Below, one piece after another: positions 14,803 through 52,431 of a stretch of 64,000 nt of DNA. The stretch is from Serinicoccus chungangensis (GTDB lineage Bacteria; Actinomycetota; Actinomycetes; Actinomycetales; Dermatophilaceae): NCBI RefSeq assembly GCF_001483745.1, contig NZ_LQBL01000008.1, forward strand, positions 51,467-115,466, given 5' to 3'. Under the pieces are notes generated by a model. The model made no database searches. It was given only the letters and a program-made list of their open reading frames with translations, and was not told where the DNA came from. Made by a program: the position numbers and the translations under genes. The first letter of the stretch is position 1; each line of letters opens with the position of its first letter.

Positions 14803-15789
14803 CTAGGAGAGCTCCTCCAGGACCGCCGGGATGACCTCGTGCATGTCGCCGATGACGGCATACCTCGCCTTGGTCACCATCGGGGCCTCGCCGTCGGTGT
14901 TGATCGCGATGATCGTCTTGGACGAGCTGCAGCCGGCCCAGTGCTGGATCGCGCCGCTGATGCCGCAGGCCAGGTAGAGGTCCGGCGCGATCCGGCTGCC
15001 GGTCTGCCCGACCTGCTCGTGGTGCGGCCGCCAGCCCAGGCTGGTGACGACGCGCGAGACACCGACGGCGCCGCCGAGCCGCGCCGCCAGGGCCTCGACG
15101 TCGTCGAACTGGTCGGCCCCGCCGACACCACGACCCGCGCCGACGACGACGTTTGCCCCGGTCAGGGCGGAGGTGTCCCCGCCCTCCTTGGCCTCCACGC
15201 GCACCACCTGCGCGACCAGGTCGGCGTCGGTCAGCTCGACGGCGACCTCCTCGACCCGCGCCTCGCCCGGGCTCGGCGCCGGTTCGGGGGCGACAGCATG
15301 CCCGGCCACCGAGGCGACCGCGAGGCCGCCCTCGGCCCGCAGCGCGACCCGCTCCAGGACCGCGCCGCCGACGACCTGCCGCTCCACCTCGAGCGGCTCG
15401 GTCTGCACCACCGCCACGACGTTGCACGGCATCGGCACGCCGCGGCGTGCGGCGACGTGCGCCAGCACCTCGTTGCCGCGCGCGGTTCCGGCCGCGAGGA
15501 GGTATGCCGTTCCACCCGCCTCCGCGGCGGCCTCGACGACCCGCGCCCAGGCGCGGGCGGCATACCGCTCCAGCCGTGGCTCCGAGGTGACGTGCAGCGT
15601 CCGCACCCCCTGCTCGCGGCAGTGCGCGAGCACCGCCTCGGGAGGTGTGCCGACCGCACCCACGAGCACGGCGTCGACGTCCTCGCCCGGCAGCGACCGG
15701 GCGAAGGTGAGGACCTCCTGGGAGACCACCGACAGCCCGGCGCCCGCGTCGCCCACGTCCTCCGGCTCCACCACGACCAGCACGCTCAT
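14803..15789 (-). CDS. etfA: Electron transfer flavoprotein, alpha subunit
   Basis: 328 aa. The C-terminal FAD-binding domain carries the ETF-alpha signature: VVGAGRGVG, then GWRPHHEQVGQTG, then LYLACGISGAIQH and AINTDGEAP. With EtfB it forms a soluble heterodimer holding FAD and AMP that takes two electrons from a dehydrogenase and passes them to an ETF-quinone oxidoreductase. It is the last gene of a three-gene operon with EtfB and the FAD-GcvT dehydrogenase (ATGA overlap with etfB). It is therefore almost certainly the dedicated electron acceptor of that enzyme. The operon runs out into the 22-bp tandem repeat. Confidence 0.9.
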   Translation of the reverse strand: MSVLVVVEPEDVGDAGAGLSVVSQEVLTFARSLPGEDVDAVLVGAVGTPPEAVLAHCREQGVRTLHVTSEPRLERYAARAWARVVEAAAEAGGTAYLLAAGTARGNEVLAHVAARRGVPMPCNVVAVVQTEPLEVERQVVGGAVLERVALRAEGGLAVASVAGHAVAPEPAPSPGEARVEEVAVELTDADLVAQVVRVEAKEGGDTSALTGANVVVGAGRGVGGADQFDDVEALAARLGGAVGVSRVVTSLGWRPHHEQVGQTGSRIAPDLYLACGISGAIQHWAGCSSSKTIIAINTDGEAPMVTKARYAVIGDMHEVIPAVLEELS

Positions 15790-16556
15790 CGCACGACTCC
15801 CAGCTCTCGCAGCACGTCGACCAGCCGCGGCGCGGCGGCCTTCCCCTCGCCGAGCACCTCGACGTCGCTCTCCGGCGGCGGCAGCACCCGCAGCCCTAGC
15901 CGGCCGCTGCCCTGCGGCGCGCCGGAGGGCTCGAGCACCTCGATCCGCGCCTTCTTGGCCCGCATCCGGCCGCTGATGTTGGGGTAGCGGGGCTCGACCC
16001 CGCCCTCCCAGATCGTGAGCACGGCCGGCAGCGGGACGTCGAAGACCTCCGTCGGGCCGGACACGCTGGACCGCACGTCCAGCCGGTCGCCGGACACCGC
16101 GACCTCCTGCGCGCCCGCCACGACGGGCCGGTCGAGCAGGTGCGCCAGCCGGATCCCGACCTGGTGGTCGCCGGTGTCGGCGGCGTCGTTGCCGACGAGC
16201 ACGAGGTCGAACGGCCGCCCCTCGGCCTCCCTGGCCCGGACGACCTCGGCGATGGCGGTCGCGACGTCGGCCGGCCCGTAGTCGTCGGCCACCGCGTCGA
16301 TGCGCACCGCCTCGTCGGCCCCGACGGCGAGCGCGGCGCGCAGCTGCTCGACGCTGTCGTCGTCACCGAGGGTCAGGACGGTGACCGAGCCGCCGGTGTC
16401 CCCGGCGACGGCGACCGCGATCTCGACGGCGCACTCCTCGTGGCTGCTCATGGTCCAGCCGGCGTAGCGGCCGTCGACACCGCTCCCGTCGGCGGTCAGG
16501 ACGACCTCGCCGGAGGTGTCGGGCACCCGCTTCACGCAGACCAGGACGTCGGTCAT
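15786..16556 (-). CDS. etfB: Electron transfer flavoprotein, beta subunit
   Basis: 256 aa, opening with MTDVLVCVKRVPDT, the standard ETF-beta start. It has the AMP-binding region VLVGNDAADTGDHQVGIRLAHLL and the RYPNISGRMRAKK loop that is the recognition surface for partner dehydrogenases in this family. The ATG overlaps the stop of the upstream dehydrogenase gene by one base (TGATG) and its stop overlaps the etfA start, so the three proteins are made in a coupled fashion. Genes for ETF-quinone oxidoreductase are not in the window. Confidence 0.9.
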   Translation of the reverse strand: MTDVLVCVKRVPDTSGEVVLTADGSGVDGRYAGWTMSSHEECAVEIAVAVAGDTGGSVTVLTLGDDDSVEQLRAALAVGADEAVRIDAVADDYGPADVATAIAEVVRAREAEGRPFDLVLVGNDAADTGDHQVGIRLAHLLDRPVVAGAQEVAVSGDRLDVRSSVSGPTEVFDVPLPAVLTIWEGGVEPRYPNISGRMRAKKARIEVLEPSGAPQGSGRLGLRVLPPPESDVEVLGEGKAAAPRLVDVLRELGVVR

Positions 16557-19138
16557 CAGGCCACCCCCACCGGCTCGGCCGCCGCCGCGGGATGCTCGGC
16601 GGGCTGCTCGAGCTCGGCGTACCGGCCCTTGACCCGCAGGTTCTCCGGGTCGAGCAGCGGCGTCGCGTCGACGCTGGCGACGGTCACCGGGTAGAGCTCC
16701 TCCATGTAGGACACGGCGAGCCCGGTGCCGACGACGGCCTGCTCGGGCGGCAGGAAGGCCATGAGCACGTGCTTGCCGAGGCTCGGCGCGGAGGCCGCCG
16801 AGGTGACGTAGGGGTGGTGCCCGTGGCCGTCGGTCAGCGGCTCGCCGTCGCGCCCGAGGATGGGCTCGCCACCGAGCATGTAGCGCTTGACCCCGCTCGC
16901 GGAGGTGTGGTCGTCCACGGTCAGCGCGCAGAGCACCGCCTTCGGGGGCTGCCCGGCCTGGGCCAGCACGGCCTCCTTGCCGATGAAGTCGGCGTCCTTG
17001 ACCTTGGGCCGCTCCATGCCGGTCTCGGAGAGGGTGCGCTCGGCGTCCAGCTCGGCGCCGTAGGCGCGGTAGCCCTTCTCGATCCGCCCGGTCGCGGTGT
17101 AGACCCCGATGCCGACGGGGACGACCCCGTGCTCGCGGCCCGTCTCGATGAGCCGCTCCCACAGCTGCGCGCCGGTCTCGATGGGCACGTAGAGCTCCCA
17201 GCCGAACTCGCCGACGTAGGAGATCCGCGAGGCCAGCACCGACAGGTCGCCCACCTCGATGAGCCGGCAGGTGCCGAACCGGAAGGTCTCCGGCGACAGG
17301 TCGTCGTCGGTGAGCGCACCGAGCACGTCACCGGCGCGCGGACCCCATACCCCGATCGTGGAGTATGCCGAGGTCAGGTCGACGAGCGAGGCGCCCTCGG
17401 GCAGGTGGTCGGCGAACCACTTCTTGTCCACCATGCCGTGCGCCCCGCCGGTGACGACCCGGAAGTGGTCGTGCCCGAGCCGCATGACCGTGAGGTCGGA
17501 GCGGAAGCCGCCGGTCTCGTCCAGCACCGGGGTGTAGACCACCCTCCCGATCGCGACGTCGGCCTGGGCGACGATGATGCGCTGCACCGCGTCGAGCGCG
17601 GCCGGTCCGACGACGTCGAAGATCGCGAAGGCGGTGAGGTCGACGATGCCGCCGCGGGCCCGCAGGGCCAGGTGCTCGGCGTTGATGACCGGGCTCCACC
17701 AGCGGGCGTCCCACTCGTGCTCGCGCGGCATGACGGCGTCGCCGAACTCCTCGAGCAGCGGCTCGTTGGAGGCGTACCACTGCGGGCGCTCCCACCCGGC
17801 GGCCTCGTAGAACACCGCGCCGAGCTCGCGCTGGCTGGCGTGCATCGGCGAGAGCCGGATGGGCCGCGAGCTCTGCCACTGCTCGGAGGGGTGGACGATG
17901 CCGTAGGTCTTGTTGAACGCCTCGCTGGTGCGGGCGCGGACGTGGGCGCGGGTGCGCTGGTGGGGGTAGAAGCGGGCGATGTCGCTGTGCCCCAGGTCGA
18001 TCTCCGGGTGGCCGTGGGTCATCCACTCCGCGACCGCGCGGCCGACGCCCGGGCCCTCCTTGATCCACACCGCGGCGCAGCTCCACAGGCCCTTGACCTC
18101 GGGGGTCTCCCCCAGCACCGGTGCACCGTCCGGGGTGAGCGAGAGCAGCCCGTTGATGGCGTAGCGGATCTCGGCGCGCTCGTCGCCGAGCAGCTCGGGC
18201 ATGAGCTCCAGCGCCTGCTCCAGCTGCGGGTCGAAGTCGTCCTCGGTGAAGGGCATCTCGGTCGGCGACAGCTTGGCCTGCGCGATCGAGGGGATCTCGT
18301 CCGGCTCGTGCAGGATCGCGCGGTGGGCGTAGGACCCGACCTCCATGTCCGAGCCGTGCTGCCGCTCGTAGCAGAAGGTGTCCATGTCCCGGATGATCGG
18401 GAAGCTGATCTCGCCCGGCTTCTCGGCGAGCGGCTCGCAGGGGCCGACCGAGATCATCTGGTGCACGGCCGGGGTCAGCGGGATGTGCGCGCCGGCCATC
18501 CGGGCCAGCCGCGGGCTCCAGACGCCGCAGGCGATGACGACGACCGGCGCCTCGATGTCGCCCTTGTCCGTCTGCACGGCGCTGATCCGACCCTCGGTGA
18601 CGGTCATCCCGGTCACCTCGACGTTGGGGACCGTGGTGAGCACGCCCTTGGCCTGGGCGTTCTCCCGCATGATGGTGCCAGCGCGCAGCGAGTCGACGAC
18701 GCCGACGCTGGGCGTGTAGAAGCCGCCGACGATGACGTCGGGGTCGAGGAAGGGCACCATCTCGGCGACCTCCTCCGGCGTCACCAGCCGCGACTCGATC
18801 CCCCAGGCCCTGGCCGAAGACATCCGCCGCCGCAGCTCCTCCATCCGTTCCTCGGTGCGCGCCACCTCGATGCCGCCGGAGGTGGTGAGCACGCCCATCT
18901 CGTCGTACTGCCGCATCGAGTCCAGGGTCAGGTCGGTGATCTCCCGGCTGTGGTCCACGGGGAAGATGAAGTTGGAGGCGTGGCCGGTGGACCCGCCGGG
19001 GTTGGGCAAGGGGCCCTTGTCGATCTGCACGATGTCGGTCCAGCCCAGCTCGGCGAGGTGGTGGACCAGCGAGTTGCCGACGATGCCGGCCCCGATGACG
19101 AGGACGTCGCAGCGGACGGGGAGGGAGGAGGTGCTCAT
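16556..19138 (-). CDS. FAD-dependent dehydrogenase fused to a GcvT (aminomethyltransferase) domain; dimethylglycine/sarcosine dehydrogenase family
   Basis: 860 aa. The N-terminal DAO fold has a Rossmann GxGxxG (LVIGAGIVGNSLV, about 14-26). The sequence GGSTGHASN places His53 at the position that covalently binds FAD in mammalian dimethylglycine and sarcosine dehydrogenases. An FAO_M-type middle domain (about 370-430) leads into a GcvT folate-binding domain (about 430-720, with GEFGWELYVP) and a GcvT C-terminal barrel. The enzyme would oxidatively demethylate an N-methylated amino acid and transfer the one-carbon unit to THF as methylene-THF. Co-transcription with etfBA argues for a dehydrogenase rather than an O2-using oxidase. 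Two IclR boxes lie 17 nt before the ATG. The exact substrate (dimethylglycine, sarcosine or another methylamine) is not determinable. Confidence 0.85.
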   Translation of the reverse strand: MSTSSLPVRCDVLVIGAGIVGNSLVHHLAELGWTDIVQIDKGPLPNPGGSTGHASNFIFPVDHSREITDLTLDSMRQYDEMGVLTTSGGIEVARTEERMEELRRRMSSARAWGIESRLVTPEEVAEMVPFLDPDVIVGGFYTPSVGVVDSLRAGTIMRENAQAKGVLTTVPNVEVTGMTVTEGRISAVQTDKGDIEAPVVVIACGVWSPRLARMAGAHIPLTPAVHQMISVGPCEPLAEKPGEISFPIIRDMDTFCYERQHGSDMEVGSYAHRAILHEPDEIPSIAQAKLSPTEMPFTEDDFDPQLEQALELMPELLGDERAEIRYAINGLLSLTPDGAPVLGETPEVKGLWSCAAVWIKEGPGVGRAVAEWMTHGHPEIDLGHSDIARFYPHQRTRAHVRARTSEAFNKTYGIVHPSEQWQSSRPIRLSPMHASQRELGAVFYEAAGWERPQWYASNEPLLEEFGDAVMPREHEWDARWWSPVINAEHLALRARGGIVDLTAFAIFDVVGPAALDAVQRIIVAQADVAIGRVVYTPVLDETGGFRSDLTVMRLGHDHFRVVTGGAHGMVDKKWFADHLPEGASLVDLTSAYSTIGVWGPRAGDVLGALTDDDLSPETFRFGTCRLIEVGDLSVLASRISYVGEFGWELYVPIETGAQLWERLIETGREHGVVPVGIGVYTATGRIEKGYRAYGAELDAERTLSETGMERPKVKDADFIGKEAVLAQAGQPPKAVLCALTVDDHTSASGVKRYMLGGEPILGRDGEPLTDGHGHHPYVTSAASAPSLGKHVLMAFLPPEQAVVGTGLAVSYMEELYPVTVASVDATPLLDPENLRVKGRYAELEQPAEHPAAAAEPVGVA

Positions 19139-19154
19139 GGTCGCCCTTCTGGTG

Positions 19155-19188
19155 GTGCGTATCGCGCAACTGTGCGCGTATCACGCAA
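19155..19188. promoter_or_regulatory. Paired IclR-type operator of the dehydrogenase-etfBA operon
   Basis: On the plus strand box 1 is GTGCG-TATCG-CGCAA (19155-19169) and box 2 is GCGCG-TATCA-CGCAA (19174-19188), 19 bp apart start to start. The same 34-bp layout occurs in front of three other units of this region. The dehydrogenase ATG at 19138 is 17 nt away. The rest of the gap (19189-19309) shows nothing else recognisable. Confidence 0.75.
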
Positions 19189-19309
19189 CCAGTCTCATCA
19201 CTGGCGACGAGGGTGTCAAGCGTTCGCGCCGCCCGGCGTGCACACGGACGACCACTGCGGGTATGCCCTCACGCACCGCAGACGTGCACGTCGGGTGGTC
19301 CAGCGCCGG

Positions 19310-19735
19310 TCACCGGCAGGGATTGATCCATGGCACCTCGGGGAAGCGGGCGAAGTCGCTGTCGGCACTGACCACCGGCACGCCGTGCTGGAGCGCGAGC
19401 GCGGCCAGCTGGGCGTCAGGGATGAGGTTGCCGGTGACACCGTCCTTCATGATCAGCCGTCGCAGGATCGCCCAGGTCGAGGCGTTGGTCTCGGGCATCC
19501 AGGCCGCCGGAGCGTGCATCCAGTCGTCGACCAGGGTCGCCGCGAAGGCCGGCTCGAGCGGCTCGGCCATGATCCGGGGGTGGGTCGAGATCCGCAGGAA
19601 GGCGGTGACGCTCTGCGACGGTATGCCGACGCGGACATCACCGTTGAGCCGCTCCTCGAGGAAGGCCCTGCTCGACTCGTGGTGGGACGAGGTGCTGTCG
19701 ACGGCATACAGCAGGATGTTGGCGTCGACGATCAC
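19310..19735 (-). CDS. vapC: VapC-type PIN-domain toxin
   Basis: 141 aa. A PIN ribonuclease fold is indicated by the opening MIVDANILLYAVD (first catalytic Asp), an internal Glu region, and the C-terminal acidic pair in GVPVVSADSDFARF. VapC toxins cleave tRNA or rRNA, and their activity is masked by VapB. The ATG overlaps the antitoxin stop (ATGA), the canonical vapBC layout. It sits inside the one-carbon regulon but reads as an independent cassette with its own promoter and dyad. It looks intact, since length and acidic residues are as expected. Confidence 0.85.
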   Translation of the reverse strand: MIVDANILLYAVDSTSSHHESSRAFLEERLNGDVRVGIPSQSVTAFLRISTHPRIMAEPLEPAFAATLVDDWMHAPAAWMPETNASTWAILRRLIMKDGVTGNLIPDAQLAALALQHGVPVVSADSDFARFPEVPWINPCR

Positions 19736-19956
19736 TCGGCGTCCAGAAGGTCGAGCACCTCGCCGATGTTGGTCACATCGACGCGGGAACCGAGGCGCGA
19801 GGTGCGTTGCGTGAAGGGCATCGGGGAAGTCTGCCGCGACCGCAGCATCCCGCGACGGGCGAGGAGGACGACGGCCTCGCTCACGCTGAGGCCTGACTCC
19901 CGCAGCCGGGCCACTTCAGCTTCGACGTCCGGCGTGAGATTCACCGTGGTGCGCAT
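19732..19956 (-). CDS. vapB: VapB-type antitoxin
   Basis: 74 aa from the ATG at 19956; a GTG one codon upstream is possible. The N-terminal MRTTVNLTPDVEAEVARL fits a ribbon-helix-helix DNA-binding domain. The C-terminal tail (VDVTNIGEVLDLLDAE) is the probable toxin-wrapping segment. A TAGATT -10 box 6 nt before the ATG suggests a leaderless message. A perfect 10-bp dyad about 30 bp upstream is the likely autoregulatory operator. Confidence 0.8.
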   Translation of the reverse strand: MRTTVNLTPDVEAEVARLRESGLSVSEAVVLLARRGMLRSRQTSPMPFTQRTSRLGSRVDVTNIGEVLDLLDAE

Positions 19957-19962
19957 CACACC

Positions 19963-19968
19963 AATCTA
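19963..19968 (-). promoter_or_regulatory. -10 box of vapBC
   Basis: TAGATT on the minus strand with 6 nt to the ATG at 19956, giving a probable leaderless start. Confidence 0.5.
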
Positions 19969-19986
19969 CATCAATGACGCGCATCA

Positions 19987-20007
19987 AGGTGCATCATTGA
20001 TGCACCT
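19987..20007. promoter_or_regulatory. Perfect dyad, likely VapB(C) operator
   Basis: The arms AGGTGCATCA and TGATGCACCT flank a single central T. A related CATCAATGACGCGCATC lies just downstream towards vapB. The position directly upstream of the -10 box fits conditional autoregulation. Confidence 0.65.
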
Positions 20008-20021
20008 CAGACCCCTCCACC

Positions 20022-20305
20022 TCAGGAGGGGCGGGTGCCCTCCGGGGCGACACCGTGGAGGTCGGCCCAGACCTCGGTCATCTCCCGGGTCGCCCCCTCG
20101 GCCCCGTCCACGAACATCGCCAACTCGACGTGGGCCGTCAGCCCCTCGACCAGACCGGTGACGTGGGTCCGGCACGCCGCGCGCCCGCGGTCCGCGACGA
20201 GGTCTCGCCGGTAGGCACGAGGCGGCTGGTGAAGCCCGGCGCCAGCAGGTCGGGCAGGTCCTCCCATCGGTGGGCGTCGATCGTCTGGACGAGCCGGCGG
20301 ATCAC
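20022..20305 (-). pseudogene. Broken SnoaL-like/NTF2-fold gene
   Basis: One frame from a GTG at 20305 encodes VIRRLVQTIDAHRWEDLP, continuing to LVPTGE, the N-terminal half of a SnoaL-like protein. A different frame encodes THVTGLVEGLTAHVE and EMTEVWADLHGVAPEGTRP, the C-terminal half ending at 20022. The join near 20205-20215 needs a frameshift, and about 20-25 residues normally present between the halves (the F/W-x-D-x-D-Y-P stretch) are missing. This looks like a small deletion, not a single sequencing error. SnoaL-like proteins are small cone-fold enzymes or scaffolds of diverse function. The gene starts just after the beta-propeller gene on the same strand. Confidence 0.6.
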
Positions 20306-20327
20306 GTCATCGGCATGCGTGGCCCAC

Positions 20328-21500
20328 TCAGGTGCGTTCGAGGACCTCCACCGACAGGACCGTCGGCAGGTGCCGCGCGATCTCCTGCCAGCTCTCCCCC
20401 TCGTCGGCGGTGGCGAAGACCGACCCGGTGTTGGTGCCGAAGTAGAGCCCCGCCGGGTCCCCGGTGTCGCCCGCCATCGCCTGGCGCAGCACGGTGAAGA
20501 AGCACGACTCCTGGGGCAGCCCGGCCCGCTGCGCCTCCCACGTCGACCCGCCGTCGGTGGAGCGCCAGACGGCTGCGGCGGCGTCCGGCGGGTAGCGGCC
20601 CTCCATGTCGCCGTTGAGCGGGATGGTCCAGATCGTGTCGGGGTCGCGCGGGTGCACCCGCATCGGGAAGCCGAAGGTGGAGGGCAGACCGGCGGTGATG
20701 TCGCTCCAGGTCAGTCCGCCGTCACCAGAGCGCCACACCCCGACGTGGTTGCGCTGGTAAAGGACGTCGCCCGGCCCGGGCGCACGGACGATGTGGTGGA
20801 CGCACAGCCCCACCTCCCCGCCGCCCGGTCCCCCCGGGTGCTCGGCCGCGGCCGCGGCGTCCGGCTCGTCGGGCAGGGCCAGCGCGTTGCGCCGCTCCCA
20901 CTGGCCGCCGGCGTCCTTCGTGGCGAAGACCCCGGCGGCGGAGATCCCGAGCCACACCCGGGACGGGTCTCCGGGGTCGGCCAGGATGGTGTGCAGCACC
21001 AGCCCCGCCGCGCCCGGGTTCCAGTCCTCCGCCGAGGGGTGCTGGCGCAGGCTCTCGACCTCGGTCCACGTGACCCCGCCGTCGTCGCTGGCGAGGAGCG
21101 CGGCCGGCTTGGTGCCGGCATACACCCGGTCCCCGGCGAGGCCGAGCGACCACACCTGGCTGAACTCCTCGCCGAACGGCACGTCCTTCGGGCTCCACCC
21201 GACCGCCGTGGCGAAGTCGGGGTCGCCCGCGGCCCAGGCGTCCATGGCGCCGGTCGTCAGCTGGCTGAGCTCCCACGTGCCGCCGCCGTCGGTGGAGCGC
21301 CAGACCCCCGCGCCCGACCACTCGCCCCCGCCGCCGGCCCAGATCGTCCCGGTCACCGGGTCGCCGACGACATGGTTGATCGGCCACCCGTCGCAGAAGG
21401 GGCCCCGCACCGCCCAGCCGACACCGCCCTCTCCCTCGCGCTGCTCGAGGACGAACGCCCCTTTGGTCGTGCCGACCAGCAGCACCGGCCCCCTCGCCAT
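20328..21500 (-). CDS. BNR/Asp-box beta-propeller protein (sialidase-like fold)
   Basis: 390 aa without a signal peptide. At least four Asp-box motifs are visible (STDGGGTW, SDDGGVTW, SGDGGLTW and STDGGSTW), with a fifth degenerate one (TADEGESW). This indicates a six- or seven-bladed propeller of the exo-alpha-sialidase/Vps10-like type. No sialidase catalytic Arg triad or FRIP motif was recognised, so the enzymatic role is unknown. It is divergent from the stand-alone methyltransferase, and the shared 240-bp gap contains an IclR box pair. Possible co-regulation with the one-carbon genes is inferred from this position only. Confidence 0.75.
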   Translation of the reverse strand: MARGPVLLVGTTKGAFVLEQREGEGGVGWAVRGPFCDGWPINHVVGDPVTGTIWAGGGGEWSGAGVWRSTDGGGTWELSQLTTGAMDAWAAGDPDFATAVGWSPKDVPFGEEFSQVWSLGLAGDRVYAGTKPAALLASDDGGVTWTEVESLRQHPSAEDWNPGAAGLVLHTILADPGDPSRVWLGISAAGVFATKDAGGQWERRNALALPDEPDAAAAAEHPGGPGGGEVGLCVHHIVRAPGPGDVLYQRNHVGVWRSGDGGLTWSDITAGLPSTFGFPMRVHPRDPDTIWTIPLNGDMEGRYPPDAAAAVWRSTDGGSTWEAQRAGLPQESCFFTVLRQAMAGDTGDPAGLYFGTNTGSVFATADEGESWQEIARHLPTVLSVEVLERT

Positions 21501-21617
21501 GGCTCCGCCCTCTCCGCGCCGCCGCCGTGGCGGCGCCTCCGTCCCGATCCTGGCACGGCTTACCGACAGACGTCAGCCCTCACCGGGAGCAAAGACACGG
21601 CGGCGACACGCCATACG

Positions 21618-21651
21618 TTGCGTATGACGAAGTTCATTGCACAAGACGAAA
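21618..21651. promoter_or_regulatory. Paired IclR-type operator before the methyltransferase gene
   Basis: Box 1 TTGCG-TATGA-CGAAG (21618-21632) and box 2 TTGCA-CAAGA-CGAAA (21637-21651) are again spaced 19 bp. A separate perfect dyad CATACG-TTG-CGTATG (21612-21626) overlaps box 1. Box 2 covers the expected -35 region of the TAGCGT -10 at 21661. Confidence 0.75.
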
Positions 21652-21660
21652 CCTCGGGTG

Positions 21661-21666
21661 TAGCGT
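21661..21666 (+). promoter_or_regulatory. -10 box of the methyltransferase gene
   Basis: TAGCGT preceded by TG (extended -10) would give a start near 21673 and a leader of about 70 nt containing the AGGAGG at 21727. Confidence 0.45.
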
Positions 21667-21741
21667 CCGAAGTACGCTGGAAAACAGCCCACCACCCCGT
21701 CGACGCCGATGTCGACCCCGCACGACAGGAGGGCGACGCCC

Positions 21742-23109
21742 ATGGCGGCAACCCCGATCATCACCACGACCGACGACGCGTCGCGGGCCTCGGCCCCGGA
21801 GCACGACCAGCCGGTCAACCACAACCACCCGACGGTGCAGCAGGGACGCTCGGTCCCCGTCAACCTCCGGCAGACCGGGCCCACCCCGATGCAGCTGCTC
21901 ATCTCGACCCGCATCCGCAAGTCGCCCTACTGGCACCTCTCGGTCGAGGCGGGGGCCTGGCGGGCGGAGGTCTACAACCGCGTCTACCACCCCCGGGGCT
22001 ACCTCTCCATGGAGGAGGGCGGGCCCCTGGCCGAGCACCGGTCGGTCGTCGAGGACGTCACGCTGTGGAACGTCGCGGTCGAGCGGCAGATCCAGGTCAA
22101 GGGCCCGGACGCGGAGGACTTCGTCAACTACGTCATCACCCGGCAGGCCAAGACCATCACCCCGATGCACGCCCGCTACGTCATCCTGTGCAACGAGGCC
22201 GGGGGGATCCTCAACGACCCGGTGCTGCTGCGGATCAGCGAGGACGAGTTCTGGTTCAGCCTGTCCGACTCCAGCCTGATGTTCTGGCTGCAGGGGGTCA
22301 ACATCAGCAAGGGGTACGACGTCACCATCGACGAGATCGACGTCTGCCCGGTGCAGATCCAGGGGCCCAGGTCCGAGGCCCTCATGCGCGACCTCATCGG
22401 CCCCATGGTCTCCGACATCCCCAACTACGGTCTCGCCGCCGCCGAGGTCGCGGGGCTGCCGGTCATCGTCTCCCAGACCGGGTTCACCGGGGAGAAGGGC
22501 TACGAGATCTACCTCTACGACGCCACGCTGCACGCCGAGGAGATGTGGAACGCCATCCTGGAGGCGGGCGAGGCGCACCACCTGCGGGTCATCGCCCCGG
22601 CCCACCCGCGCCGCGTGCAGGCGGGCATCCTCTCGTGGGGGCAGGACATGGACGCCGAGACCTCGCCGCTGCAGACCAACCTGGCCTACCAGGTGCCACG
22701 CAAGAAGGAGGAGGACTACATCGGCAAAGCGGCGCTCGAGGCGCAGCGCGAGCAGCTCGAGGCCGGCCAGCCCCCGTTCGACCTCATGCTGGTCGGGCTC
22801 CGGCTGGGCGGCAAGCCCATCACCGACTACGCCCCCGACTTCTGGCTGGTCAGCACCACGGACTCCGACGACCCGGTCGGTTACCTGACCTCTCCGTGGT
22901 ACTCCCCCGAGCTCGAGACCAACATCGCCCTGGGCTACGTGCCCGTCGGCATGAGCGGCACCGGCACGCAGGTGCGCGTGTGGCTGCCGGAGGAGTATGC
23001 CGAGACGCCCGGGCAGCCGGTCGACGCGGTGATCGTGGACGTGCCGTTCCGCCCGTCCGTCAACCCGAACACCCGCGAGGTGCTCAAGCAGGGACAGCAG
23101 TCGTTCTGA
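21742..23109 (+). CDS. GcvT/DmdA/LigM-superfamily THF-dependent methyltransferase (demethylase), substrate unknown
   Basis: 455 aa. The start is the ATG at 21742, with AGGAGG 8 nt before it; an in-frame ATG at 21709 lacks such a site. The fold is that of aminomethyltransferase: a GCV_T-like N-terminal domain (VYHPRGYLSMEEGG, VTLWNVAVERQIQVKG, then GFTGEKGYEIYLYD) and a C-terminal barrel (IALGYVPVGMSGTG). It is longer than glycine-cleavage T-protein (about 365 aa) and in the length range of LigM-type O-demethylases, and no other gcv gene is nearby. Such enzymes move a methyl or methylene group from a methylated substrate to THF. The neighbouring MTHFR and the shared operator support a catabolic demethylase. 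It could act on a methyl ether, a sulfonium compound or an N-methyl compound. Confidence 0.75.
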   Translation: MAATPIITTTDDASRASAPEHDQPVNHNHPTVQQGRSVPVNLRQTGPTPMQLLISTRIRKSPYWHLSVEAGAWRAEVYNRVYHPRGYLSMEEGGPLAEHRSVVEDVTLWNVAVERQIQVKGPDAEDFVNYVITRQAKTITPMHARYVILCNEAGGILNDPVLLRISEDEFWFSLSDSSLMFWLQGVNISKGYDVTIDEIDVCPVQIQGPRSEALMRDLIGPMVSDIPNYGLAAAEVAGLPVIVSQTGFTGEKGYEIYLYDATLHAEEMWNAILEAGEAHHLRVIAPAHPRRVQAGILSWGQDMDAETSPLQTNLAYQVPRKKEEDYIGKAALEAQREQLEAGQPPFDLMLVGLRLGGKPITDYAPDFWLVSTTDSDDPVGYLTSPWYSPELETNIALGYVPVGMSGTGTQVRVWLPEEYAETPGQPVDAVIVDVPFRPSVNPNTREVLKQGQQSF

Positions 23110-23123
23110 GCCCCTGCCGCCGG

Positions 23124-23165
23124 CCCGCCGGGCCCTGACCGCCGCCGCGGTCGGGGCCCGGTGGG
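23124..23165. terminator. Strong bidirectional hairpin between convergent genes
   Basis: 18-base arms (23124-23141 and 23148-23165) pair fully when two G-U pairs are allowed, with a 6-nt CCGCCG loop. It lies between the methyltransferase stop and the iclR stop. The right arm ends 4 nt before the iclR stop codon on the opposite strand. Confidence 0.75.
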
Positions 23166-23168
23166 GCG

Positions 23169-23972
23169 TCAGGCCGGTTCGGGCGCGGAGGCGGCGGGGC
23201 CGCGGTGCCAGCCCAGCCGCGACGACACCTCGTCCGCGGCGCTCAGCAGCGACGGGACGAGCTCTCGGATCCGCTCGGCGTCCATCCGGAAGCTCGGACC
23301 GGACACGCTCATCGAGGCGCAGACCTCGCCGTGCGCGTTGCGCACCGGTGCGGCCACCGCACTGAGCCCCACGTCGAGCTCGTCCTGCACCACGGCATAC
23401 CCCTGCTCCCGTGCCGCGTCGACCAGACGGTCGAGCTCGTCGGGATCGGTGACCGTGCGCTCGGTGTATGCCGTGAGGTCGCCCCAGGTGGCCCGCCTCT
23501 CCCGGGCAGGCAGCTCGCTCACCAGCACTCGCCCGTTGCTCGTCGCGTGCAGCGGGATGTGCTGGCCGACCCAGTTGTGCGAGGTGATGGTCGACGGTCC
23601 GATGACCTGGTCGATGTAGAGCGCCGAGCGTCCGCCGAGAACCGCGATGTTGACCGTCTCGTTGGTGTCGGAGGCCAGCTCCTGGCAGACCGGGCGAGCC
23701 TCCTGCACCAGGTCCAGCCGTGCGCTGGTCGACCCCGCCAGGCGCAGGACGCCCACCCCGAGGCGAACCCGCCCACGCTCACCCGTGAGCTCGACGAGAT
23801 CGTGGGCGGCGAGCGTCGACACGAGGCGGCTGGCCGTGGACTTGTGCACGCCCAGAGCCGCCGCCACCTCACCGACCCCCGCCTCGCCCACCCTGGCCAG
23901 GATCTCGAGAACCGTCAGGGCGCGGTCCACGGACTGGACCGCAGACCCGGTGGTCTCCTCGTGATTGCGCAT
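23169..23972 (-). CDS. IclR-family transcriptional regulator of the one-carbon regulon
   Basis: 267 aa. A winged helix-turn-helix at about residues 12-70 (ALTVLEILARVGEAGVGEVAAALGVHKSTASRLVSTL, split here by reading) is followed by an IclR effector-binding GAF-like domain with NWVGQHIPLHATSNGRV and GLSAVAAPVRN. It is convergent with the methyltransferase gene. Its own promoter has the TAGAGT -10 box wedged exactly between two operator boxes, with box 1 covering the ATG. This is strong sequence evidence for autoregulation, and identical box pairs occur before the methyltransferase, MTHFR and dehydrogenase genes. The ligand is presumably a methylated substrate or product of the pathway. Confidence 0.9.
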   Translation of the reverse strand: MRNHEETTGSAVQSVDRALTVLEILARVGEAGVGEVAAALGVHKSTASRLVSTLAAHDLVELTGERGRVRLGVGVLRLAGSTSARLDLVQEARPVCQELASDTNETVNIAVLGGRSALYIDQVIGPSTITSHNWVGQHIPLHATSNGRVLVSELPARERRATWGDLTAYTERTVTDPDELDRLVDAAREQGYAVVQDELDVGLSAVAAPVRNAHGEVCASMSVSGPSFRMDAERIRELVPSLLSAADEVSSRLGWHRGPAASAPEPA

Positions 23973-23998
23973 GACGCAACTCTACGCGTCCTGCGCAA
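23965..23998. promoter_or_regulatory. Paired IclR-type operator and -10 of iclR
   Basis: Box 1 is the perfect dyad TTGCG-CATGA-CGCAA (23965-23979), overlapping the start codon. Box 2 is ACGCG-TCCTG-CGCAA (23984-23998), with 19-bp spacing. The minus-strand -10 TAGAGT (23984-23979) sits between them and is 6 nt from the ATG at 23972, so the mRNA is probably leaderless and directly blocked by the bound regulator. Confidence 0.8.
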
Positions 23999-24049
23999 CG
24001 GGGTGCGAGACCGACGCGCCACCCCTTCTGCGCCGGTTTCCCCACCCTC

Positions 24050-24916
24050 TCACGGACCGACGCTCCGGTCGCGCAGCCGCGCCACAGCGCCCAGCTGCTC
24101 GCGACGCCAGGCCTCGGTCTTCTCGATCTGGTTGAAGCTGTAGAGGTGGAGCCCGCCGATGTTGAGGCGCTGGGTACCGGCCAGAGCGGCGATGCGTCGC
24201 ACGAATCGGGTGGTCGAGAACCCGGGCAGCGCGATCCTGGCGAAGACACCGCGCTGCTTGCGCAGAAAGCGCACCGAGTCCCCGACCCCGATCATGCTCG
24301 CCATCCGCAACAGCTTGGCCGGGTCGACCGGTCCGGGAACGCCGACCCAGACCGGGTGCTCGATGCCGCGGCGGCGGACCCGCTCGAGCCACTGGCCCAC
24401 CTGCTCGTCGTCGAAGGTCATGTTGGAGACGATGTCGGTCGCGTAGCGCCGCTTGTCCCACATGGACTGGACGATGACGTCGTCGTCGATGCCCGGGTGC
24501 GACTCGGGGTAGCCGGTGATCCCCACCCGCTCGAAGGGGCGGCCCATCTGCTCCAGCTCGACGAGCAGGTCCAGGGCGTTGGTGAAGGTGGTCTCGGTCG
24601 GCACTGCGTCACCCCCCGGAACGAAGACCTCGGTGACCCCCAGGCCCTGGAGGTGCTCCACGAGGCCCGGCAGGTGGTCGCGCTGGATCATGCGCGCCGC
24701 CAGGTGGGGCACCACGTGGTAGCGGTCGGCGAGCTGCTCGGTGACCGCGAGGGTGGCCTCCAGCCCCTTGGCGGGGGAGGCCGTCACGGTGACCGTCCGG
24801 CCGGGCTCGACGTGAGCATGGACCTGCTCGGCCACCGACGCCGTGGGCAGGATCTCCAGGCGCGCCCGCTCCAGCAACCACTCCAGGGAGGCGGAGGGAT
24901 ATCTGTTGCTCATCAT
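24050..24916 (-). CDS. Methylenetetrahydrofolate reductase family protein
   Basis: 288 aa, a TIM-barrel of the MetF type. It contains VTVTASPAKGLEATL and later HLAARMIQRDHLP (folate-side residues), FVPGGDAVPTE, GYPESHPGI, TFDDEQVGQWLERVRRRGIEHPVWVGVPGP and the C-terminal LHLYSFNQIEKTEAW. It is atypical compared with housekeeping MetF and resembles paralogues found next to THF-dependent demethylases. Those are thought to run in the oxidative direction (methyl-THF to methylene-THF). Two IclR boxes lie at its start, one in the predicted 5' leader and the other overlapping the first codons. The start may be either of two adjacent ATGs (24916 or 24913). Confidence 0.8.
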   Translation of the reverse strand: MMSNRYPSASLEWLLERARLEILPTASVAEQVHAHVEPGRTVTVTASPAKGLEATLAVTEQLADRYHVVPHLAARMIQRDHLPGLVEHLQGLGVTEVFVPGGDAVPTETTFTNALDLLVELEQMGRPFERVGITGYPESHPGIDDDVIVQSMWDKRRYATDIVSNMTFDDEQVGQWLERVRRRGIEHPVWVGVPGPVDPAKLLRMASMIGVGDSVRFLRKQRGVFARIALPGFSTTRFVRRIAALAGTQRLNIGGLHLYSFNQIEKTEAWRREQLGAVARLRDRSVGP

Positions 24917-24939
24917 GCAATGCGATTCGTCATACGCAC
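24906..24939. promoter_or_regulatory. Paired IclR-type operator at the MTHFR start
   Basis: On the minus strand box 1 is GTGCG-TATGA-CGAAT (24939-24925) and box 2 is TTGCA-TGATG-AGCAA (24920-24906), with 19-bp spacing. Box 2 runs over the start codon into codon 4. The 22-bp layout TGCGTATGACGAA-N3-CATTGCA is identical to the one before the methyltransferase gene. Confidence 0.75.
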
Positions 24940-24946
24940 AGCATCA

Positions 24947-42140: not shown

Positions 42141-43343
42141 TCAGATCTCCAGCGCCCGCACGATCGGGACCCCGACGCGGTAGGGGATGTGCAGGAAGCT
42201 GGGGGCGGCGACCACCGCCAGGTCCGCGCGCCGCCCGACCCGCACCTGGCCGAGGTCGTCGCGGCGCAGGGCGCGGGCACCGCCGACGGTGGCGGCACGC
42301 AGCGCCTCCGCGGGGGCCATGCCCATCTCCCGCACGGCCAGCGCGATCATCAGCGGCATGGACGAGGAGCTGCACGTCCCGGGGTTGCAGTCGCTCGCGA
42401 GGGCGACGTCGACGCCGGCGTCGAGGAGGCGCCGCGCGTCGGGGTAGGGCTGGCGGGTCGAGAACTCCACGCCCGGCAGCAGCGTCGCGACGGTGCCGCT
42501 GCCGGCGAGCGCGTCGACGTCGGCGTCGGTGAGGAAGGTGCAGTGGTCCACGCTGGCCGCGCCCAGCTCGACGGCGAGCTGCGCGCCCGGCCCCTCGGAC
42601 AGCTGGTTGCCGTGCACCCGCAGCTCGAGCCCCGCGTCCCGGCCCGCCTCGAGGACGCGCCGGGACTCCTGCTCGTCGAAGGCATACCTGCTGGCCGGCT
42701 CGCAGAAGACGTCGACCCAGCGCGCGTGGGGCGCGCAGGCAGCGAGCATCTCGCCGCAGACGAGGTCGAGGTAGGCCTCCCGCCCGCCCTCGCCGCGGGC
42801 GTCCGGCGGCACGACGTGGGCCCCGAGGAAGGTCGTCTCGGTGGTGACCTCGCGGGCCAGGCGCAGCGCGCGCACCTCGTGCTCGACGTCCAGGCCGTAG
42901 CCGCTCTTGATCTCGACGGTGGTGGTGCCCTGGGCGCGCATCTCGGCGACCCGCGCCTGCAGGAGGGCCCGCAGCTGGGCGTCCGTGGCCTCCCGGGTCG
43001 CGGCCATGGTCACGGCGATGCCGCCTCCGTCGTAGGCCTGCCCGGTCATCCGCGCCGCGAACTCGGCCGACCGGTCCCCCGCGAAGACGAGGTGGGAGTG
43101 GCTGTCGATGAAACCGGGCACGACCGCCTGGCCGCCGAGGTCGATGGCCCAGTCGGCCTCGGGCGCCTCACCGGCCGGGCCGACCCACTCGACGACGGGG
43201 GCCGAGTCCTCGCCTCCGCCCCCGACGACGAGGGCGGCGTCCTCGACCACCCCCAGCCCTCGGGTCAGCGGCGACCCGCCGCCGTCCTCGCGGGTGTCGT
43301 CACAGGTGACGAGCTCACTGATGCCGGTGATGAGCATGCTCAT
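42141..43343 (-). CDS. hutI: Imidazolonepropionase
   Basis: 400 aa. Amidohydrolase fold with metal ligands H82 and H84 in [13 protein letters not shown]. Other landmarks are the EIKSGYGLD loop with the conserved lysine and tyrosine, VHGNQLSEG (His), SVDHCTFLT and ASDCNPGT (Asp). It hydrolyses imidazolone-5-propionate to N-formimino-L-glutamate, the third step of histidine degradation. It is the last gene of the M20-hutF-hutI unit. A 66-nt gap separates it from hutF, and a start two codons later is possible. Confidence 0.95.
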
Positions 43344-43409
43344 GCGTCGATCCTCTCGTGTCTCAGGAGTTGCACATCTGCTGCGCGCCGGGCGCGCGGT
43401 GTCGGTGGG

Positions 43410-44828
43410 TCAGTCCTGCCACAGCGGGGCGATGGCCTCGGTGAGCAGGCGGCCGACGTCACCGAGGCGGTGCCGTCCGCCCTCGACGACGACGCCGCCG
43501 TCGACCACCACCGTGTCGACGTCGGCCGCGCCGGCCGCCAGCAGGATCTGCGCCGGGTCGGCGCCGGCGGTCCGCACGGTGTCGTCGCGGACGGCGACGA
43601 GGTCCGCCCTCGCACCGACCTCGAGGCGACCCGCGTCGGGCCAGCCGATGCTCTCGTGCGCGGTGGCGGCCGCCAGCAGGTCGGCCGGGGCGAGGCGCCC
43701 GCGCTCGAGCGTGGCGAGCCGCTCGTGCATCTCCAGCGCCCGCGCCTCCTCCAGGAGGTCGACGACGGCGTGCTGGTCGGACCCGAGGGACAGGCGGGCC
43801 CCGGCCTCCCGCAGCGCCCGCGCCGGCCCGATGCCGTCGGCCAGGTCGCGCTCGGTCGTGGGGCAGAAGCAGGCCCAGGCCCGGTGCCGGCCGAGGAGCT
43901 CGACATCGGCCCCGGTGAGGTGGGTGGCGTGCACGGCGGACAGGTCGGGCCCGAGGACCCCCTCGGCCGCGAGCAGCCCGGTCGGGGTGAGGCCGTGGGC
44001 GGCGAGGCAGGCGTCGTTCTCGGCCGGCTGCTCGGACAGGTGCAGGTGCAGCGGCCGCCCGGCCCGGTCGCCAGCACCGCCCGGTCCCCCGTCCACCGCA
44101 GCCCGGTGGCGACCGGCGGCGCCGGCGCCCTGGTCGGCTCGGGCCCAGTCGGCCACCACGCCCAGCTGCCCGCGCGGCACCGCCCGCACCGAGTGGATCG
44201 CCGCCCCCACCCGCAGGTGCGCCGGGCCGCCGTCGGTGTGGTCGCGCACGTCCTCGACCCGCAGCGCCCACGTCTGCGCGTCCAGGTCGCCGAAACGCAG
44301 CTGCGGCCCCTCCAGCTCGGCGTACCCCGCGCCGTCCAGCCCGCCGGCGAGGTAGCACGCGTCCAGCAGGGTGAGCCGGATCCCGGCGTCCTGCGCGGCC
44401 TGCACCAGCGCGTGCCCCATGGCGTTGGGGTCCATGTAGCGCCGGCCGCCCGGGGCGTGGTGCAGGTAGTGGAACTCCCCCACCGCCGTGACCCCGGCGA
44501 GCGCCATCTCGGCGTAGGCCGCCCGCGCGAGGGACAGGTAGGAGTCCGGGTCGAGGCGCGCGGCCACGGCATACATCCGCTCGCGCCACGTCCAGAACGT
44601 CCCGCCGCCGTCGTGGGTCCGCCCGCGCAGCGCCCGGTGGAAGGCGTGGCTGTGGGCGTTCGCGAGGCCCGGGAGGACCACACCGGGCAGCCGGTGGTCG
44701 CCCGCCTGCGCAGGTATGCCGTCGCTCACCTCGAGGAGTCGCCCCGCCTCCACGACGAGCCGGACGTCGCGGCGCACCCCGTCGGGCAGGTGCGCAGCGG
44801 TGGCGTGGAAGGCGGTGCGCCCGCTCAC
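43410..44828 (-). CDS. hutF: N-formimino-L-glutamate deiminase
   Basis: 472 aa from a GTG overlapping the upstream stop (GTGA). Amidohydrolase signatures are LPGLANAHSHAFHRALRG (HxH ligands), LHLHLSEQPAEN, VHATHL and LGSDQHAVVD. It deiminates formiminoglutamate to N-formylglutamate with release of ammonia, defining the five-step HutF route rather than the HutE/formiminotransferase route. The formylglutamate must then be deformylated; the upstream M20 amidohydrolase is the candidate. A glycine- and alanine-rich insertion near residues 240-270 is unusual but lies outside the motifs. Confidence 0.92.
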   Translation of the reverse strand: MSGRTAFHATAAHLPDGVRRDVRLVVEAGRLLEVSDGIPAQAGDHRLPGVVLPGLANAHSHAFHRALRGRTHDGGGTFWTWRERMYAVAARLDPDSYLSLARAAYAEMALAGVTAVGEFHYLHHAPGGRRYMDPNAMGHALVQAAQDAGIRLTLLDACYLAGGLDGAGYAELEGPQLRFGDLDAQTWALRVEDVRDHTDGGPAHLRVGAAIHSVRAVPRGQLGVVADWARADQGAGAAGRHRAAVDGGPGGAGDRAGRPLHLHLSEQPAENDACLAAHGLTPTGLLAAEGVLGPDLSAVHATHLTGADVELLGRHRAWACFCPTTERDLADGIGPARALREAGARLSLGSDQHAVVDLLEEARALEMHERLATLERGRLAPADLLAAATAHESIGWPDAGRLEVGARADLVAVRDDTVRTAGADPAQILLAAGAADVDTVVVDGGVVVEGGRHRLGDVGRLLTEAIAPLWQD

Positions 44829-46084
44829 GACGGCTCGCCCACGAGGTCGGCCACGCAGGCGGCCAGGGCGTCCACCCCGGCGTGGCAGTCGTCGGGCTCG
44901 GCGTGCTCGGCCGGGCTGTGCGACACCCCGGTGGGGTTGCGGACGAAGAGCATGGCGGTGGGCACGCCGGCCCCGGCGAGGATGCCGGCGTCGTGCCCCG
45001 CGCCGGTCCCCAGCACGGGGACGCTGAGCTCGTCCTCGCGGCCGAGCACCCCGCGCAACCGGGCGGCGAGGTCGGTGTCGAGGCGGGTGGTGGGGGTCCA
45101 CGACTCACGGGTCACCGTGGCGCCCGCCGCGGCAGAGCTCCGGGTGAGGTCGGCGACGAGCGCCTCGACCTGCGTCTCGTCGGCGCCGCGGGCGTCCAGC
45201 CAGCCGGTGACGTGGGAAGGGATGGCGTTGACGCCGCCCGGGGTGACCGCGACCTTGCCCACCGTCGCGACGCAGCCACGGCGCTCGGCGGCCTCACGGG
45301 CTCCGAGCACGAGGCCGGCGTACCCGAGCATCGCGTCGCGGCGGTCCTCCAGCCGCGTGGTGCCGGCGTGGTCGGCCTCCCCCGGGAAGTCGAAGCGCCA
45401 GCGGCCGTGCGGCCAGATGTCGCTGCCGACCGCGACCGGGGCGTCGAGATCGACCAGGGCCCGGCCCTGCTCGACGTGCAGCTCGACGAAGCACCCGACC
45501 CGGGCGAGGGCCTCGTCGTCGCGGCCGAGCCGGCCGGGGTCGCGACCGGCGGCCGACAGGGCCTGCGCGTAGGTCACGCCGTCGGCGTCGGTGAGCGCCC
45601 GGGCCCGGTCCGCGTCCAGCGCCCCGGTGAGCACGCGGGAGCCGGCGCAGGCGATCCCGAAGCGGGCCCCCTCCTCGTCGACGAAGTGGACGACGGCGAC
45701 GGGAACGGCGGGGACGACCCCCTGGGCCCGCAGCGCGTCCAGGGCCGCGAAGGAGCTCACCACCCCCAGCGGCCCGTCGAAGGCGCCGCCGTCGGGCACC
45801 GAGTCGAGGTGCGACCCGATGACCACCCCGCGGTGCCCGGCGCGCGCGGCGTCGTCGACGCTGCCGGGCCCGTCCCACCACCAGGCCCACTGGTTGCCGA
45901 CGCGGTCCTCGACGAGGTCCAGCCTGCGCGCGGCCGCCTCGCCGGCGAACCACTCCCGCAGCGCGGCGTCCTCCCTGGTCCACACGAAGCGGCGGTAGCC
46001 CCCGCTCCCCACCCGGCCGACCGGGTCGAGGTCGGCCCACAGGCGGTCGAAGGTCCTCAGGTGCTCGTCGCCGGGGGTGCTCAC
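44825..46084 (-). CDS. M20-family amidohydrolase (AllC/HyuC-like), candidate N-formylglutamate deformylase
   Basis: 419 aa. Binuclear-metal motifs are GSHLDSVPDGGAFDG (His, Asp), VDEEGARF (acidic pair) and FVELHVEQG (His). The lid domain residues HAGTTRLEDRRDA and VNAIPSHV and the C-terminal GTGAGHDAG are also present, as in allantoate amidohydrolases and N-carbamoyl-amino-acid hydrolases. It is translationally coupled to hutF. No HutG of the arginase-like or hydrolase type is in either hut unit, so this protein probably releases formate from N-formylglutamate. That assignment is inference from context. The start is a leaderless-type GTG with TAGAGT 7 nt upstream. Confidence 0.85.
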   Translation of the reverse strand: MSTPGDEHLRTFDRLWADLDPVGRVGSGGYRRFVWTREDAALREWFAGEAAARRLDLVEDRVGNQWAWWWDGPGSVDDAARAGHRGVVIGSHLDSVPDGGAFDGPLGVVSSFAALDALRAQGVVPAVPVAVVHFVDEEGARFGIACAGSRVLTGALDADRARALTDADGVTYAQALSAAGRDPGRLGRDDEALARVGCFVELHVEQGRALVDLDAPVAVGSDIWPHGRWRFDFPGEADHAGTTRLEDRRDAMLGYAGLVLGAREAAERRGCVATVGKVAVTPGGVNAIPSHVTGWLDARGADETQVEALVADLTRSSAAAGATVTRESWTPTTRLDTDLAARLRGVLGREDELSVPVLGTGAGHDAGILAGAGVPTAMLFVRNPTGVSHSPAEHAEPDDCHAGVDALAACVADLVGEPS

Positions 46085-46091
46085 CTGCCCG

Positions 46092-46097
46092 ACTCTA
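46092..46097 (-). promoter_or_regulatory. -10 box of the M20-hutF-hutI unit
   Basis: TAGAGT on the minus strand with 7 nt to the GTG at 46084. Confidence 0.55.
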
Positions 46098-46139
46098 GGG
46101 GCGCCGACGCCCGGCCGGCAGGGGTGCGCGGGCCCCAAG

Positions 46140-46156
46140 GTCTCGGATCCCGGACG
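46140..46156 (-). promoter_or_regulatory. Shared hut element, copy 1
   Basis: On the minus strand CGTCCGGGATCCGAGAC-type sequence, core beginning 57 nt before the first start codon of the M20-hutF-hutI unit. It contains the symmetric GTC-N3-GATC-N3-GA pattern. Copy 2 lies at the same distance before hutH. Confidence 0.55.
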
Positions 46157-46159
46157 GCC

Positions 46160-46165
46160 TACGCT
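46160..46165 (+). promoter_or_regulatory. -10 box, leaderless ybaK-like gene
   Basis: TACGCT followed by 7 nt and the ATG at 46173. Confidence 0.5.
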
Positions 46166-46172
46166 GGTCCGC

Positions 46173-46658: not shown

Positions 46659-46677
46659 GGTCGGCGAGCGGGCCGCG

Positions 46678-47229: not shown

Positions 47230-47308
47230 CGTGCCCCTCCCCCGTCATGCCGTCCAGCATGGTGCATCCGCGGACACCCCGGCCGCGTCGTCCACAGCCG
47301 CACGGCCA

Positions 47309-47734: not shown

Positions 47735-47741
47735 GACCCCG

Positions 47742-47747
47742 AACCTA
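47742..47747 (-). promoter_or_regulatory. -10 box of the PPOX-class gene
   Basis: TAGGTT on the minus strand with 7 nt to the ATG at 47734. Confidence 0.45.
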
Positions 47748-47758
47748 CGCCGCTGCGG

Positions 47759-49078: not shown

Positions 49079-49079
49079 C

Positions 49080-50738: not shown

Positions 50739-50768
50739 GGTCGTCTCCTTCGACGTGTCGGTGTGCGG

Positions 50769-52376: not shown

Positions 52377-52431
52377 GCAGACCATTGGACCGCCGCCGGG
52401 CCTCCACGTCACCAGCCCTGGGCGTCTCGGT

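Follow-up and report, generated by a model that had tools for sequence, protein, structure and literature searches.

Four tandem operators and a predicted IclR-controlled regulon for glycine-betaine demethylation in Serinicoccus chungangensis

Paired binding sites are an architecture already known for the IclR family of regulators, since the main text of Suvorova and Gelfand (2021, PMC8222616) describes tandem IclR sites whose centers lie 18-22 bp apart, predicts them in 94 orthologous groups, links them to tetramer binding, and includes GTT-11-AAC among its motif types. For glycine betaine, excerpts of a recent report describe an aerobic demethylation that is cobalamin-dependent, in addition to the oxygenase (GbcAB) and Bhmt routes already known (PMC12478193). 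The locus considered here touches on both subjects. It lies in a 64,000-nucleotide stretch of the Serinicoccus chungangensis genome (G000, 3.56 Mb; contig C8, positions 51467-115466), hereafter called the window, in which an iclR gene and three neighboring transcription units each carry a double operator (Table 1). Very probably, these four sites are the operators of the linked IclR protein, which would repress its own gene, the operon of a flavin adenine dinucleotide (FAD)-GcvT fusion dehydrogenase with etfBA, a stand-alone methyltransferase gene, and metF; betaine breakdown would relieve the repression, and the enzymes would demethylate betaine serially.

Table 1. Operators and genes of the predicted regulon, with positions in the window
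Feature	Position	Strand	Details
Operator A	19154..19189		boxes at 19155 and 19174; lies 16-51 bp before the start of the FAD-GcvT dehydrogenase gene; held-out matrix 30.9 bits; genome model 22.8 bits
Operator B	21617..21652		boxes at 21618 and 21637; precedes the stand-alone GcvT/DmdA-like gene; held-out matrix 36.2 bits; genome model 18.8 bits
Operator C	23964..23999		boxes at 23965 and 23984; covers the iclR start codon; held-out matrix 29.0 bits; genome model 23.6 bits
Operator D	24905..24940		boxes at 24939 and 24920; covers the start codon (24916) of the MTHFR-like gene; held-out matrix 32.9 bits; genome model 23.0 bits
Electron transfer flavoprotein alpha subunit	14803..15789	-	Pfam ETF_alpha, ETF
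Electron transfer flavoprotein beta subunit	15786..16556	-	Pfam ETF
FAD-GcvT fusion dehydrogenase, dimethylglycine oxidase/dehydrogenase family	16556..19138	-	Pfam DAO, FAO_M, GCV_T, GCV_T_C
Stand-alone GcvT-fold methyltransferase (DmdA-like)	21742..23109	+	Pfam GCV_T
IclR-family regulator, 267 amino acids	23169..23972	-	Pfam IclR_C 152 bits, HTH_IclR
MTHFR (MetF)-like protein	24050..24916	-	Pfam MTHFR 33.1 bits (cut-off 24); NCBIfam TIGR00676 54.7 (cut-off 293.7)

An earlier reading of the window from its letters (the sequence-only reading) had reported the four box pairs, and direct inspection finds all of them, each with a start-to-start distance of 19 bp. The operator that it took to be 34 bp long is in fact a conserved unit of 36 bp, one base longer on each side, with the form GTTGCG-N5-CGNAAC, N2, GTTGCG-N5-CGNAAC (17+2+17). 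Its box consensus, KTGCG-N5-CGMAA, occurs exactly in two of the eight boxes (19155 and 23965), with one mismatch in four, and with two mismatches in the boxes at 23984 and 24920. The first iclR box does cover the ATG (23972-23970) of the listed reading frame, and the perfect dyad claimed for it holds for the 5+5 half-site letters and not for the central five bases. A promoter scan found no canonical sigma-70 promoter; promoter placements are therefore by-eye readings, in which box 2 of operator B overlaps a possible -35 element, TTGCAC (21637-21642), with TAGCGT at 21661-21666, and operator C also overlies a possible -10 element, TAGAGT (23984-23979).

Single boxes with at most one mismatch are not enriched (20 in the window versus 13.9 +/- 4.4 in shuffles), and the seed pattern was drawn by eye from the window and from DNA upstream of relatives' iclR genes, so that motif discovery was not blind. 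Both points speak for a chance resemblance of GC-rich promoter DNA, an explanation that is nonetheless vanishingly improbable given the behavior of the whole unit. A held-out matrix was built from 205 sites in 73 loci of other genera, leaving out the window, loci L031-L035, and the short loci L001-L030, and it contains no Serinicoccus or Ornithinimicrobium sequence. In 100 Markov resamples of the window, the best score of this matrix had a mean of 1.8 bits and a maximum of 14.3 bits, compared with 29-36 bits for the operators. Within the window itself, the four operators rank first, followed by a shifted overlap of operator A (16.2 bits) and then by a score of -2.3 bits. The shifted match, at 19173-19208, looks like a further, weak dyad (a third one) that continues the 19-bp repeat past operator A.

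The same arrangement recurs in other genomes. Of 91 relatives' loci found by searching genome contigs with the IclR protein, the best 80 were kept; most are from Nocardioides, and Phycicoccus, Marmoricola, Mumia, Jatrophihabitans, Serinicoccus, and Ornithinimicrobium are also represented. When at least 8 of the 10 half-site letters are required in each box, these loci (one a near-copy) contain 119 pairs at 19 bp, 12 at 51 bp, 11 at 20 bp, and 6 at 18 bp, and a single Markov resample of the same DNA contains 1 pair at 19 bp. The sequence-only reading took the constant spacing to fit a dimer of dimers, and 19 bp at all four operators together with the 119 pairs in relatives agrees well with that view. 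By eye, the 51-bp pairs of L036, L038, L045, and similar Nocardioides loci reflect a dyad that overlies the iclR start codon in addition to the tandem pair farther upstream. After the near-copy L033 had been dropped, a 79-locus matrix of 188 sites matched 246 positions in the loci and window at 16 bits or more and none in resampled DNA. Conservation among relatives, on which the sequence-only reading had staked its case, is clear: a site of 22 bits is present at least once in 77 of the 79 close-orthologue loci, the exceptions being L081 and L102.

The genes behind these sites suggest what the regulon is for. With the 79-locus matrix at 22 bits and with gene starts from a simple in-house gene caller, a site is found upstream of FAD-GcvT in 57/59 cases, betB in 48/63, metF in 23/28, purU in 44/62, iclR in 46/75, proV in 9/68, the DmdA-like gene in 3/3, and betA in 1/62. 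The purU and iclR genes are mostly divergent, with one site common to both (40 sites). A site also precedes 20 of 35 called genes that resemble the BCCT gene of L036; the three of these checked with Pfam are BCCT genes (PF02028), and two of the three match the glycine-betaine BCCT model best, under its cut-off (580 and 587 versus 650). In L086, the site lies between iclR and a gene for formate-tetrahydrofolate (THF) ligase. In the Mumia locus L040, the genes around the regulator include four whose products exceed the model cut-offs (choline dehydrogenase, ProV at the family cut-off, a methyl-THF:corrinoid transferase, and PurU), a gene resembling betaine aldehyde dehydrogenase (619 bits, cut-off 669), ProW-like and ProX-like genes, an MttB-family gene, a gene for an MtgC-like corrinoid protein, and the genes for RACo and MetF. 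Because relatives' operators precede betaine and choline genes, the regulon is best read as one for choline and glycine-betaine catabolism under a putative IclR repressor; what had been called a one-carbon regulon would stand as a single regulon of four units, with its scope narrowed accordingly.

In the S. chungangensis genome, a model derived from 42 relatives' sites, applied to 150 of 1159 first-look candidates, gave the four operators (18.8-23.6 bits; Table 1), some weaker hits that read these places in reverse or in part, and then 12.0 bits for the next place. This fifth candidate (C3:18769, 12 bits, E 1.07) lies upstream of a gene that looks Rpf-like by sequence and was judged to be a chance match. 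A loose-pattern scan found the four operators and one other place, C27:98743, which was also rejected, since it fits the loose pattern only and a reversed control pattern likewise gave five hits. Within the reach of these scans, the four units make up the whole regulon of this genome, and the many unrelated hits that would have spoken against it are not seen. Sites had been expected only at demethylation, transport, and formate genes; within the same extent of scanning, this genome has no additional transport or formate sites, and in relatives such sites do occur, at purU (through the site that it has in common with the divergent iclR), proV, BCCT transporters, and the one formate-THF ligase.

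That the linked IclR protein is the likely regulator of the four operators, as the sequence-only reading proposed along with a single regulon, is supported by comparative genomics. The protein has both the IclR helix-turn-helix and the IclR_C effector domain and is 86% identical to the iclR product of Serinicoccus kebangsaanensis. An orthologue of at least 56% identity is present in 14 of 31 same-genus genomes, and in 12 of these 14 the stretches read hold at least one site of at least 14 bits; none of 11 distant-paralogue loci (L020-L030) has one. It is improbable that another regulator, such as a different IclR protein, binds the sites in place of the linked one. Binding by the linked protein is predicted from DNA and protein sequence only, a search of the genome gives a second IclR match (39% identity, E<=1e-20), a further IclR gene lies in the window at 57790, and relatives' betaine loci contain a second iclR, all of which would favor such a regulator. 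Against it, the second iclR of relatives is of a kind not found among the labelled window genes, and the genes that adjoin it have no 22-bit site upstream (0/63 mttB, 0/62 mtgC), the counts being likewise 0/63 for the second iclR itself, 0/60 for methyl-THF transferase, and 0/60 for RACo; furthermore, the linked iclR has a site over its own promoter region, a feature absent around the 11 distant paralogues.

The position of the operators suggests that IclR would act as a repressor rather than an activator, because they lie over the iclR and metF start codons and over the possible -35 element of the stand-alone gene, and because of where TANNNT falls in relatives. At relatives' iclR sites, TANNNT is found 47 bp after the site start in 31 of 51 cases, and at metF sites it is found 15-17 bp before the site start 18 times in 25 loci; at FAD-GcvT and betB sites, it has no single dominant position. 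The closest NCBIfam model of the regulator is BhcR (NF045644), the glyoxylate regulator of the beta-hydroxyaspartate cycle (PMC11323563, in part). The two are alike in that no other model scores better, and they differ in that the score, 177.5 bits, is below the cut-off of 350 and only two of five residues of the IclR/BhcR oxygen-binding pocket are kept (Ser239 and Ser241), with Gly160 replaced by Ser, Ala161 by Asn, and Asp212 by Val; BhcR itself deviates at position 161. Glyoxylate, the effector that the analogy would supply, is weakened as a candidate by the three differing residues, and because only two of the five are kept, the effector is probably another metabolite of the pathway.

The gene of the stand-alone methyltransferase probably starts at ATG 21742 behind AGGAGG (by eye), the longest frame beginning at 21709. 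The protein is alike to DmdA, the dimethylsulfoniopropionate (DMSP) demethylase, in belonging to the GcvT family, in being stand-alone, and in having NDP where GcvT has DDL; DmdA is also its best PDB match (3tfh, 132 bits). It differs in its NCBIfam DmdA score (231.3 bits, below the cut-off of 410) and in having Phe259 in the column of the Trp named for DMSP, W171 in the portion of PMC7487153 consulted, a column identified by how far it lies from the Glu and Tyr that bind folate. That column holds Phe in 9/10 aligned proteins, the one from the window among them, and Tyr in 1/10. The missing Trp and the sub-cut-off score disfavor a DMSP demethylase.

A clue to its function comes from the company it keeps. 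In L031 and G022, the DmdA-like gene lies between metF and either a gene for a BNR-repeat protein or iclR; in G011, the same slot holds six genes, namely MttB, a second iclR, MtgC, methyl-THF transferase, RACo, and DUF1638, and in L032 this corrinoid set stands beside the BNR gene and iclR, the metF end being outside the stretch. (The BNR-repeat protein, at 20328-21500 in the window and also in L031, L032, and L146, belongs to the NCBIfam F510_1955 family at a score below cut-off and adjoins the exchanged cassette in both locus types.) The 14 genomes of the genus that have the regulator divide into six with only the DmdA-like gene (at least 67-100% identical to that of the window), five with only MttB, two with both, and one with neither; the S. 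chungangensis genome has no MttB match. At the thresholds used, the 17 genus genomes without the regulator have neither gene; two of them, G013 and G023, have a DmdA-like homologue of 40-44% identity near an IclR protein of 46-47% identity, each with a site. Possession of either gene goes with the regulator (13/14 versus 0/17), and the mutual exclusion of the two within the 14 genomes, which is not significant (Fisher P 0.10), is suggestive only. The operator precedes the DmdA-like gene in 5/6 DmdA-only genomes (not in G026) and in L107, from a Nocardioides metagenome-assembled genome that, at a completeness not stated, lacks an MttB match; the genomes of L040 and L087 have one. On a tree of 92 regulators, in which 12 rows are unlabelled and L018 falls under the score limit, the DmdA-like type needs three changes: six Serinicoccus/Ornithinimicrobium rows group together (support 95/70), L107 stands beside an MttB row (95/86), and L017 is on a long branch. 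MttB may be the ancestral form and the DmdA-like gene a later arrival.

Because of this exchange of genes and the shared operators, it is proposed that the stand-alone protein would be a cobalamin-free, THF-dependent glycine-betaine N-demethylase that has repeatedly taken the place of the six corrinoid genes while the IclR operator system stayed the same, a proposal to which we give even odds. A tentative alternative is that the operators are real and that the enzyme has a different methylated substrate, such as DMSP, trimethylamine N-oxide, or proline betaine, sharing only the downstream folate and FAD-GcvT steps. Such a substrate would suit a sequence that is nearest to DmdA among named NCBIfam and PDB entries, as well as the two genomes with both genes, in which the DmdA-like gene lies elsewhere without an operator (0/2). 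DMSP in particular is hard to reconcile with the replaced Trp, and more generally, the DmdA-like gene stands, with the same operators, where other loci have the corrinoid set for betaine. The alternative also draws on a GbcA-like Rieske gene in an operon with old yellow enzyme-like and ferredoxin-reductase-like genes (L165 6403-10850, on C5 of this genome; 395.7 bits versus the GbcA cut-off of 670), which could already demethylate glycine betaine. The gene is found in 4/6 DmdA-only and 3/5 MttB-only genomes; since it occurs with either type, it does not explain the exchange. In itself, the segment is perhaps an aerobic N-demethylase operon.

The remaining enzymes fit a betaine pathway. The FAD-GcvT protein has the DAO + FAO_M + GcvT architecture of dimethylglycine oxidases and dehydrogenases with near full-length homology, its best solved relative being the Arthrobacter N,N-dimethylglycine oxidase 1pj5 (514 bits, residues 12-838 of 860). 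The match to that oxidase is nearly full-length; the difference is that the window gene abuts etfBA, and the protein is for this reason probably a dehydrogenase that uses electron transfer flavoprotein (ETF). Taken together, these features would allow the following model. Two IclR dimers would sit side by side on the same face of the DNA, each on one of two dyads spaced 19 bp apart, where they would cover a promoter, a transcription start, or a start codon and so repress all four units, and a metabolite of glycine-betaine breakdown would release them. The stand-alone enzyme would then transfer one methyl group of glycine betaine to THF, the MetF-like protein would oxidize the resulting 5-methyl-THF, and the FAD-GcvT dehydrogenase with ETF would take the methyl group(s) of dimethylglycine as methylene-THF.

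It should be noted that a number of observations weigh against this model. The main complication is that the GbcA-like operon may supply another route of betaine demethylation. A Bhmt-like route may exist as well: PF02574, the homocysteine methyltransferase family, was sought as a Bhmt rival and has matches in 6/6 genomes, and while the best such protein of S. chungangensis scores highest with methionine synthase, there is a second (C5:40398, L166). The betA and betB genes of this genome adjoin each other on C28 (L141) and have no operator. Among relatives, 29/75 iclR, 15/63 betB, and 15/35 BCCT-like genes are without a 22-bit site; of the loci at 39-49% identity, L015 and L017 have a site and L016, L018, and L019 do not; and no site was found in the stretches read from G005 and G028, whose orthologues are 57-58% identical. 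The DmdA-like gene is rare: of 394 genomes sampled from the class, only the one that contains the window has it at E<=1e-100. Finally, BhcR acts as an activator in vivo, according to the part of PMC11323563 consulted, and not in the repressing manner envisaged here. As a separate observation, the motif may have changed in the orthologues of G005 and G028 (L012, L013, and L147), where no operator is recognizable in the stretches read.

Three other features of the window may be recorded. Between operator A and the BNR gene (19310-19959) lies a PIN-domain gene with a small upstream partner that has no Pfam match, a pair that is VapBC-like by look. At 42141-52385, gene starts resemble a histidine-utilization (hut) cluster, by a look at the sequence. 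At 55202-58572, a carbohydrate phosphorylase gene (PF00343) is followed by another IclR-family gene, and the matrix gives no site there.

This work provides a likely regulator, operator, and pathway for an actinobacterial locus found in many Nocardioides and their relatives, and the 36-bp matrix is directly usable to find members of the regulon. It also turns a gene of the "aminomethyltransferase family" into a testable enzyme. In the open-licence PubMed Central literature, nothing was found that joins IclR, glycine betaine, and Nocardioides, and among the matches listed there, no title or abstract start points to a folate-dependent betaine demethylase of the GcvT fold. The words "betaine" and "choline" are absent from the main text of PMC8222616, in whose supplements the regulon might stand unnamed. 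Compared with the tandem palindromes of that study, the operators described here are alike in their GTT-11-AAC dyads and in paired centers within the 18-22 bp range (19 here); the half-site differs, being GTTGCG here and GKTYCRY in its group 1, an assignment that we infer. Compared with the MtgBCD corrinoid demethylation of PMC12478193, in the part of it considered, the S. chungangensis genome differs in having no MttB match. The likeness lies in the pathway step, which would be the same, and in the neighbors seen in Nocardioides, Mumia, and Phycicoccus loci: the MttB family, a corrinoid protein, a methyl-THF transferase, and betaine genes. If the model is right, a single protein would convert betaine to dimethylglycine and 5-methyl-THF, a folate route of a further kind beside the cobalamin, GbcAB, and Bhmt routes, and one that would alter how betaine use is read from genomes.

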